Below, in pieces: positions 23,896-25,721 of a stretch of DNA of 39,972 nt. The stretch spans positions 1 through 39,972 of the forward strand of contig NZ_JACJRV010000066.1 of NCBI RefSeq assembly GCF_014697475.1. Direction: 5' to 3'. The notes under the pieces were generated by a model, which ran no database searches, was not told the DNA's origin, and saw only the letters and a program-made list of their open reading frames with translations. A program made the position numbers and the translations under genes. The stretch comes from Nostoc sp. FACHB-152 (GTDB taxonomy: Bacteria > Cyanobacteriota > Cyanobacteriia > Cyanobacteriales > Nostocaceae). The first letter of the stretch is position 1; each line of letters begins with the position of its first letter.

Positions 23896-24507
23896 ATGGC
23901 TACTCTAAATCGCGTTCTGTTTATCCAAGATACAGTTCTTAAACAAGAACCCGTACAATCAGGTCAATTACCTAGCACTAAACAACAAAATATTCCCATC
24001 GGCACGTTATTTGTGCTTAAGTTTTACGAAATACCTGCAAATTATTCCGATCACTATAAGTTCGCTTTAGAAGATCTTCAATTTAAAGGCTTTAGTAACT
24101 GGTATGCTTTTGCCAAACACGTGACAATTATCCAAGAAGCAATTAATCCTGTCACGACTATTAGTGCGATCGCTACTCAGCAACAAGCCAAGGATACTGT
24201 AAAAATTACTGTAGACCGTCAAAGTGTCGGTAATCAACAAGGTTTTCTCAAGCTGGTGTTTAATGCAGATACCATAATTAAGCGTCAACCTGTAGATTCT
24301 AAGGTGCTGAATGATCAATCCAAGCAAAAAATTCCCGCAGGTACAGAATTAATTTTATTAACTGACAAGCCGGACACTAATAATATTGTTAAATTTACTA
24401 TTCAGGACAGCCATCTAAAATTTAGCCTGAAAGATGTTGAGTTTAAAGGTTTCTCGAAAGATTGGTTTGTCTTTACGCAACACGTTGGCATTCAAGGTCT
24501 TGACTAA
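23896..24507 (+). CDS. Protein with two tandem copies of an uncharacterised beta-rich domain
   Basis: 203 aa. Residues about 4-80 and 112-201 are clearly repeats of each other: LFIQDTVLKQEPVQSGQLPS matches LVFNADTIIKRQPVDSKVLN, IPIGTLFVLKF matches IPAGTELILLT, and FALEDLQFKGFSNWYAFAKH matches FSLKDVEFKGFSKDWFVFTQ. A Thr/Ala/Gln-rich linker joins them. No signal peptide or membrane segment. The pattern of short strands around a Pro/Gly turn resembles SH3-like or cell-wall-binding modules; I do not assign a function. ATG 23896 has GGGCAAG upstream. The stop is followed at once by a stem-loop (24510-24540). Confidence 0.75.
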   Translation: MATLNRVLFIQDTVLKQEPVQSGQLPSTKQQNIPIGTLFVLKFYEIPANYSDHYKFALEDLQFKGFSNWYAFAKHVTIIQEAINPVTTISAIATQQQAKDTVKITVDRQSVGNQQGFLKLVFNADTIIKRQPVDSKVLNDQSKQKIPAGTELILLTDKPDTNNIVKFTIQDSHLKFSLKDVEFKGFSKDWFVFTQHVGIQGLD

Positions 24508-24509
24508 TT

Positions 24510-24540
24510 TGTAGAGATGTTGCAATGCAACGTCTCTACA
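24510..24540. terminator. 15-bp stem-loop of the TGTAGAGACGTTGCA type
   Basis: TGTAGAGATGTTGCA, one A, then TGCAACGTCTCTACA; the only departure from perfect pairing is a G-U-compatible position. It lies 3 nt after the stop at 24507. Palindromes of this sequence are, from general knowledge, widespread in heterocystous cyanobacterial spacers. It may act as a terminator although the following U-run is short (ATATTTTTT about 7 nt later). Confidence 0.7.
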
Positions 24541-24563
24541 AATCATATTTTTTCCGGCTTTAC

Positions 24564-24587
24564 GGCGTAGATATAGCGAAACTGTCA
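24564..24587. repeat. Left member of a 24-bp inverted repeat flanking the alpha-CTD-like gene
   Basis: Contains GGCGTAGATATAGCGAA followed by ACTGTCA. The reverse complement occurs at 25449-25472 with one mismatch. The two copies bracket 24588-25448, which holds the regulator gene and its promoter. Confidence 0.8.
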
Positions 24588-24631
24588 ACAGTGTATACAA
24601 TGTTTTATAATTACTGTGTACACTGTTGACA
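24583..24631 (+). promoter_or_regulatory. Promoter straddled by a 13-bp inverted repeat (candidate autoregulatory operator)
   Basis: TGTCAACAGTGTA (24583-24595) and TACACTGTTGACA (24619-24631) are exact inverted repeats. Between them is a perfect TATAAT (24606-24611), with CTGTCA at 24582-24587 as a possible -35 hexamer, 18 bp away. The left arm thus overlaps the -35 and the right arm the start-site region, a geometry expected for a repressor of its own gene. AAGGTGGAGAGAG and the ATG at 24644 follow. A related half-site ACAGTGTTGACAAA lies inside the gene at 24915-24928. Confidence 0.7.
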
Positions 24632-24643
24632 AGGTGGAGAGAG

Positions 24644-25273
24644 ATGGGGAAAAAAAACAAGGAATCGCCTATTGTAAGCTTCCGTGTGCCACATTCTGTT
24701 GTCGAGAAGTTAATTACAGATGGCAGATTGAAGCCTAACCATATAAAGTCAGAGTTATCCAACCTAATCAAAAATGACTGGTTAGCTTCTGTTGATGCTG
24801 GTGTAGAACCGACTGTGAGTGTAAATACTGTTTATGAGCAACTAGCAAAAATAGATAGAGTTCTAGAAATACTTGAGGACAATAAGCCGAATGGCGTTGT
24901 TGATGCAAGTGTAGACAGTGTTGACAAAATCAGCTTAAGTCAAAGCATAGACTCAATCTCGCCGGATAATCAGCTTGTAGAGGTTGCCAACAGTAATGTA
25001 CACCCCGTAGAGGAAATAAATGGGGATAATAAACCGATAAACTTTGTTGATGAAAACAGTATTGAGTCATTGAATTTGAAAAAAAATACTTATACGGCAC
25101 TTAAAGAGGCACAAGTTAACACAATAGAAGATTTAAATAAATATGGTGTCACAGGCTTGCGAACGCTGAAAAATCTGGGAAATAAATCTGTATCTCAGAT
25201 AGTTGAAGCACTTCAAAGCCGAGGGATTGAGTTACCAGAGTTAGCAGATCCGGAACACATCCCTTCTCTGTGA
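24644..25273 (+). CDS. Predicted regulator: short DNA-binding-like N-terminus fused to an RNA polymerase alpha-CTD-like domain
   Basis: 209 aa from ATG 24644, with GGTGGAGAG upstream. Residues about 9-48 (PIVSFRVPHSVVEKLI and following helices) resemble the strand-helix start of ribbon-helix-helix proteins. A coiled-coil-like helix (about 62-79) and a long polar, acidic linker (80-135) follow. Residues about 139-198 align with the C-terminal domain of bacterial RNA polymerase alpha: SIESLNLKKNTYTALKEA, then TIEDL, then LKNLGNKSVSQIVEALQSRG, matching the E. coli blocks LELTVRSANCLK and NLGKKSLTEIKDVLASRG. The Lys-Ser pair of the second helix-hairpin-helix is kept, but the key DNA-contact Arg265 is replaced by Asn and Asn268 by Thr. 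It may bind DNA and interact with the transcription machinery (inference). Its promoter has an inverted repeat, and 24-bp inverted repeats flank the unit. Confidence 0.75.
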   Translation: MGKKNKESPIVSFRVPHSVVEKLITDGRLKPNHIKSELSNLIKNDWLASVDAGVEPTVSVNTVYEQLAKIDRVLEILEDNKPNGVVDASVDSVDKISLSQSIDSISPDNQLVEVANSNVHPVEEINGDNKPINFVDENSIESLNLKKNTYTALKEAQVNTIEDLNKYGVTGLRTLKNLGNKSVSQIVEALQSRGIELPELADPEHIPSL

Positions 25274-25448
25274 GCAGTAATTCCGAAAGCTACGCGCTAG
25301 GACTTGATGAGCCGTTTTCAATATCCCAGTGTCAAAAACTTTGTAGGCTATGGGCAGTGATGTCGGGAATTATTAGTATTATTAGTTTTGAGAATCTTAT
25401 AGTCTGAAAGTCTTTTATAGCAGTACTTTCAGGCTATCTTGCCCCTAG

Positions 25449-25472
25449 TGACAGCTTCGCTATATCTACGCC
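25449..25472. repeat. Right member of the 24-bp inverted repeat
   Basis: TGACAGC followed by TTCGCTATATCTACGCC; the reverse complement matches 24564-24587 at 23 of 24 positions. It lies 175 bp after the stop of the alpha-CTD-like gene. Confidence 0.8.
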
Positions 25473-25543
25473 TTTACAGTTGTGATAAACGTGCATCTGT
25501 GCAGAAACGACAAAACCCCCTCCCGTGTAAACACAAATCCTCT

Positions 25544-25616
25544 GATCCCCCTAAATCCCCCTTTTTAAGGGGGACTTTTATTCTATTTCCCCCTTTTCAA
25601 GGGGCTAGGGGGGATC
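25544..25616. repeat. C/G-rich palindromic repeat (GATCCCCCTAAATCCCCCTT type)
   Basis: Starts GATCCCCCTAAATCCCCC and ends AAGGGGCTAGGGGGGATC, with inner arms CCCCCTTTTTAAGGGGG and CCCCCTTTTCAAGGGG. The outer ends pair as an imperfect inverted repeat. From general knowledge, sequences of this kind are common dispersed repeats in cyanobacterial genomes. Confidence 0.75.
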
Positions 25617-25660
25617 GAAACTTTACTAGGATACTTTATAAGACTTGTGTGTACACCGTA

Positions 25661-25721
25661 GCCTCTGCCCCCTTGTCCCCCTGCGATCTTAACGATAAGT
25701 CTTTAACCGGACACGATATCA
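25661..25721 (-). repeat. Oriented 3'-end repeat, copy C
   Basis: Read on the minus strand it begins TGATATCGTGTCCGG, with the core TCCGGTTAAAGACTTA, a 10-nt spacer and CGCAGGGGGACAAGGGGGCA. The leading TGA is the stop codon of the gene ending at 25719, exactly as in copy B. Confidence 0.75.

Follow-up and report, generated by a model that had tools for sequence, protein, structure and literature searches.

A probable autoregulated DNA-binding protein with a modified alpha-CTD-like domain, lying between Tn3-family transposon ends in Nostoc sp. FACHB-152

Two described systems each resemble part of the locus reported here. TrcR of Anabaena sp. PCC 7120 is presented, in the part of the source available to us, as an autorepressing ribbon-helix-helix (RHH) protein whose site overlaps its own -10 box (PMC10272220). 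TIMEs are described, in the accessible part of a second source, as non-autonomous derivatives of Tn3-family transposons (PMC4133298). The stretch of DNA analysed in this study, hereafter the window, is an entire contig of 39,972 bp from the 8.6-Mb genome of Nostoc sp. FACHB-152, and the named strains that it closely matches are six of Nostoc and one of Dendronalium. It carries on the forward strand (24644-25273) a gene for a 209-aa protein, in which an RHH-like N-terminal domain is joined by a linker to a domain resembling the C-terminal domain of the RNA polymerase alpha subunit (alpha-CTD). We propose, with a probability of roughly 0.65, that the product is an autoregulated, RHH-like DNA-binding regulator carrying a modified alpha-CTD.

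Pfam identified an RNA_pol_A_CTD domain (PF03118) at residues 137-191 (25052-25216, forward strand), with an E-value of 1.8e-10 and 40.8 bits against a curated cut-off of 23.8, and the match spans positions 12-66 of the 67-position profile. The best sequence match in the PDB was the RpoA chain of 8gzg (E 5.4e-9), and that of 8syi was likewise among the best; we take both chains to be of cyanobacterial origin. The alpha-CTD-like domain claimed in a preliminary description of this DNA is therefore real. A full-length RpoA was ruled out, since the protein has only 209 aa and no alpha N-terminal domain, and the NCBIfam rpoA model TIGR02027 matched only with its tail (39.7 bits, below the cut-off of 227.8). 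All nine complete homologues have the domain, and we compared these fusion proteins with 65 distinct RpoA-type tails, using what we take to be E. coli RpoA numbering. Position 265 is Asn in 9/9 homologues and Arg in 65/65 tails, so that the replacement of Arg265 noticed earlier extends to the whole set. Position 268 is Thr (six), Arg (two) or Ile (one) against Asn in every tail. At 259, 265, 268, 269 and 302, the nine fusion proteins all differ from all 65 tails; they agree with them throughout at Gly296, Lys298 and Ser299, and position 261 falls inside the RpoA range. Arg265 and Asn268 are DNA-contact residues of alpha-CTD. Because these contacts are lost and positions 259, 269 and 302 are changed, binding to UP elements is a less likely role for the domain than contact with proteins, be it in self-assembly, with polymerase or with an activator. 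When pairwise dN/dS was pooled for the nine sequences, it was 0.19 for codons 1-51 (24644-24796, forward strand), the probable RHH domain and the most strongly constrained part of the protein, 0.22 for codons 52-80, 0.55 for the variable linker (codons 81-135) and 0.51 for codons 136-200; at about 0.5, constraint on the alpha-CTD-like domain is weak.

The statement that alpha-CTD-like domains are unusual outside rpoA holds loosely. More than one match was found in 22 of the 291 genomes of the order, but when 20 of these 22 were searched again, some extra matches were weak, one being under the cut-off, and two lay in RpoA-sized frames (367 and 424 aa). Eleven extra loci were examined and ten yielded a frame; the architectures differ, and none of the ten has the ESPIVSFRVP start. 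Four of the proteins seen, from four genomes of three families, are small and combine an MTDFEQLI or MSEFEQLI start with a C-terminal alpha-CTD-like domain, an architecture unrelated to the 209-aa protein. Three frames of 1711-1728 aa, from three genomes of one genus, have two or three RNA_pol_A_CTD matches each.

The N-terminal domain is likely of the RHH type, judging from its sequence pattern and from the operator described below. No Pfam family matched it at E-values up to 10, nor did searches of NCBIfam and of PDB sequences return a family or a match. Hhalign against a CopG-like protein from the window's own genome aligned only 20 residues, with a probability of 34%. The AF2 model of the full-length protein had a pLDDT of 39; that of the N-domain, as a monomer only, reached 66 and shows an unstructured stretch followed by helices at 17-25 and 31-51, and a fold search with it gave no significant match. 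Sequence pattern and operator thus agree with the RHH-like segment suggested at the outset; profile and fold searches brought no confirming match. Tandem short symmetric boxes at the own promoter, a feature of RHH regulators, are present here, and binding to them is predicted.

These boxes form a putative 49-bp operator (24583-24631), in which four TGTNNACA boxes at 24583, 24592, 24615 and 24624 make two inverted pairs. The 17-nt arms (24583-24599 and 24615-24631) enclose the TATAAT at 24606-24611, the -10 box of a sigma-70-like promoter predicted within the operator (24582-24611, forward strand). The arms are complementary at 16 of 17 positions and exactly so over the outer 13 nt, as the preliminary description had it. 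Against 100 first-order Markov resamples of the surrounding 1601 bp, these 16 matches (spacer up to 60) compare with a best of 15, reached in 3/100. The nearly identical 24-bp inverted repeats reported on both sides of the gene match at 23 of 24 positions, compared with a best of 19 for 24-nt arms at any distance, reached in 4/100. These inverted repeats are therefore real, beyond chance. The promoter scan is no evidence by itself, since one promoter was found and 3.4 were expected in shuffles.

Conservation between loci argues for the operator. The dyad is present at all nine loci that have the 5' end of the gene (the window and eight loci in other genomes), each with TATA between the arms, and starts 61 bp (seven loci) or 63 bp (two loci) before the ATG. 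The arms are complementary at 13 to 16 of 17 positions, and 23 of the 36 boxes fit TGTNNACA exactly, the remaining 13 being off by one edge base. In blastn comparisons (E 1e-8) of the window with the eight other loci, homology started 60 to 66 bp before the ATG in 8/8; because nothing upstream of this point is common, the operator has been retained where the flanking DNA has not. A box-pair pattern gave three matches in the 39,972-bp window, with a mean of 0.00 expected: both operator arms and an intragenic site (24910-24926), so that the related half-site seen earlier inside the gene is a real pattern match. Selection on this half-site is unsupported, since it is no better conserved than coding DNA on average: 81 of the 152 17-mers in the linker, and 459 of the 611 in the CDS, equal or exceed its conservation. 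A 17-mer search of the own genome with up to two mismatches found nine places, against seven for a reversed control. Three of the nine are at this locus and one other, on contig C125, has a single mismatch. There is thus little sign of a regulon in this search, and a lone further target may exist.

Further indication comes from a 74-aa protein of another genome (G217), which shares 48% identity with the N-domain, has no alpha-CTD, and gave one weak, unrelated Pfam match (E 0.18). Its 5' region contains CGTATACAGTGTACACG and TGTGTACAATGTATACA, paired boxes with the 9-bp pitch of the window operator; two box-pair matches occur in 14,185 bp, compared with 0.01 expected by shuffling. At the level of sequence, this pairing is an independent check of the link between operator and N-domain. 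The N-domain would accordingly be expected to bind TGTNNACA box pairs at 9-bp spacing. The two inverted pairs would extend over the -35-like element, the -10 box and the presumed start site at the gene's own promoter, so binding would most likely block RNA polymerase. Such autorepression is suggested by the position of the operator and by the TrcR precedent, as far as the available part of that source describes it (PMC10272220).

A different role for the C-terminal domain has to be weighed here. The protein could activate transcription or serve as a polymerase adaptor, with the N-domain bringing a mimic of alpha-CTD to promoters, or it could act as a decoy for sigma or for activators; adaptor and decoy were proposed in the preliminary description. 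The retention of the domain in every complete homologue, with Gly296, Lys298 and Ser299, fits this idea, but five positions, including both DNA-contact residues, depart from RpoA in all of them, no clear second target promoter was found in the own genome, and the operator straddles the core promoter instead of lying upstream of it; we consider this role unlikely. About as doubtful is an extended form of the autoregulation we favour, in which the altered alpha-CTD, placed over its own promoter, would contact polymerase, sigma or activators and both block and tether polymerase, the whole forming a minimal mobile cassette. If true, a domain of polymerase would have been detached and put to new use as the effector part of a DNA-binding protein that is mobile and regulates itself, and operator and gene would make up a self-contained regulatory unit of minimal size that moves from one Nostoc genome to another. 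The locus offers a testable case of a transcription factor with a domain of the polymerase itself whose DNA-binding residues are lost, and the operator motif predicts what the N-domain binds.

We then considered how the gene is distributed. At an E-value of 1e-15 or better, it was matched in 12 of 217 family genomes. Three of these copies lack the 5' end: in two (G001 and G091) homology begins inside the gene, and the third (G191) carries a TGA, with homology lacking ahead of codon 21-23. One complete copy is carried by pNsp_b, a conjugative plasmid of Nostoc sp. ATCC 53789, where its sole annotation is "DNA-directed RNA polymerase subunit alpha C-terminal domain-containing protein". Contigs of 6.5 and 8.5 Mb carry two other copies, which are therefore chromosomal. 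No relative was found in the phage and viral collections searched. The distribution within Nostoc-type cyanobacteria is patchy, and the surroundings of the gene mostly differ. An upstream small ORF is common to 6 of the 11 loci compared, and is DUF7219 by Pfam in L034, the one locus tested. Other neighbours common to at least three of the 11 loci were an ORF cluster including an annotated endonuclease (three loci) and overlapping-frame ORFs.

Downstream, the end of a dispersed element of about 270 bp, with inverted repeats of its own, abuts the stop codon (25269-25333). This junction occurs at 9 of 12 loci; the element is absent from L032 and L033, and no match was obtained for the truncated copy in G091. 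Its ends read GGGGTsAAATGAGCAGTGATwCCGAAAGTTACGCTAAGG, and further copies were seen in several family genomes (L063, L065-L067, L070-L075 and others). Given the likeness of its ends to a Tn3 end, it may be a Tn3-type miniature element. A count of 64 of 208 genomes mixes this element with a recombinase tail, because the search probe joined the two. In G091 (contig C266; L038, 2440-2620), the sequence after the truncated alpha-CTD gene appears, by motif, to be the tail of a tyrosine recombinase. Other genomes have this tail within frames of some 310-400 aa, which in a few contigs (G161:C257, G153:C150, G174:C6 and G174:C23) lie within some kb of the dispersed element. Of note, the window also contains at 25519-25665 a dispersed repeat with CCCCTTTTTAAGGGG hairpins, which has many copies in related genomes.

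In the own genome, no place other than the two 24-bp brackets (24564-24587 and 25449-25472) comes within two mismatches of their 19-nt core. Two related genomes contain 95% identical sequences, L261 (4823 bp) and L262 (4822 bp), that start and finish with this repeat. L261 has genes for a transposase of the Tn3 type (PF01526, E 3.5e-143), for a PF00589 tyrosine recombinase and for a protein with an HTH and a zinc ribbon. These sequences are complete 4.8-kb Tn3-family transposons and apparently represent the parent type of the 24-bp repeats. Both ends of the bracketed DNA match those of L261, over 24 bp on the left (forward strand) and 83 bp on the right (25390-25472, reverse strand), the latter at 88% identity; the right end also matches L247 (93% over 82 bp) and element ends in five genomes (G001, G004, G009, G010 and G016; 79 to 98% over 47 to 106 bp). 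Outside the brackets, TTTAC is directly repeated (24559-24563 and 25473-25477), probably as a target-site duplication. From these alignments, the brackets are Tn3-family transposon ends; they do not belong to the regulator. Neither complete transposon carries the regulator gene, and the transposon ends were at none of the 11 other gene loci in the sequence stretches compared. The idea that the flanks mark a mobile or site-specifically placed unit was thus supported as to insertion-like bracketing but not as to a bond with the gene, and the striking repeats are accounted for as ordinary transposon ends.

The insertion itself has decayed. Instead of intact repeats of about 38 bp at both ends, the left repeat is cut to the outer 24-28 bp that align to the transposon copies found. 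This repeat closes with the five bases TGTCA, which also open the operator, an overlap suggestive of a deletion with its junction at this microhomology. In two of seven relatives compared (L254 and L255), the flanking-gene matches are 4 bp and 44 bp apart respectively, which leaves no room for an insertion of this size; the other five have 173 to 1,963 bp of different DNA between the flanking genes. The intergenic DNA of the window holds other repeats, its junction with the insert-free relatives does not align base by base, and no clean empty site with a single TTTAC was found among the seven. A near-perfect 18-bp hairpin followed by T-rich DNA, at 24507-24543, is also present at the same place in L254 and L255. 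Operator and gene behave as a compact unit that would have moved between genomes and sites; in Nostoc sp. FACHB-152, this unit lies within the remains of a Tn3-family transposon, enclosed by its two ends. The case suggests how a regulator and its own operator can move intact between replicons.

The gene might instead be selfish or accessory and in decay, disseminated by elements of the Tn3 type, with no host role and with a conservation that reflects recent spread. Its patchy occurrence and truncated copies, the transposon ends here and the dispersed element adjoining most copies agree with this. It seems improbable given the purifying selection on the N-domain, an operator kept although the upstream DNA was replaced, and two complete transposons without the gene. 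Least likely is a segregation or plasmid-maintenance protein (ParG- or Omega-like), with the boxes as centromere and operator: RHH partition proteins use tandem boxes and one copy is on a conjugative plasmid, but no ATPase recurs (by ORF comparison at 11 loci, and gene by gene in the pNsp_b region), few neighbours are shared, and two copies are chromosomal.

The autoregulated DNA-binding protein that we favour can finally be set beside known systems. With TIMEs, as presented in the part of the source available (PMC4133298), and with mobile insertion cassettes, the bracketed DNA shares Tn3-type terminal inverted repeats, a 5-bp repeat at the edges and a transposase-free interior with a foreign gene in the middle. 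It differs in that the same gene occurs elsewhere without these ends, and the left repeat comprises only 24 bp of a 52-bp repeat, which makes mobility of the bracketed unit doubtful. TrcR, an RHH-type regulator from a cyanobacterium, resembles the proposed autoregulator by description in that its operator overlaps its own -10 box; its site, of the TGTAGTAT type, differs from TGTNNACA, and an alpha-CTD is not mentioned in the accessible part of that source (PMC10272220). The small MTDFEQLI/MSEFEQLI proteins (144-211 aa) and the 1711-1728-aa frames with repeated domains also carry an alpha-CTD-like domain outside rpoA, but with other N-terminal parts. Compared with the RpoA tails of PF03118, the 209-aa protein keeps the NLGxKS motif, lacks the alpha N-terminal domain and, as in all nine homologues, has Glu259, Arg265, Asn268, Cys269 and Glu302 of the RpoA type replaced.
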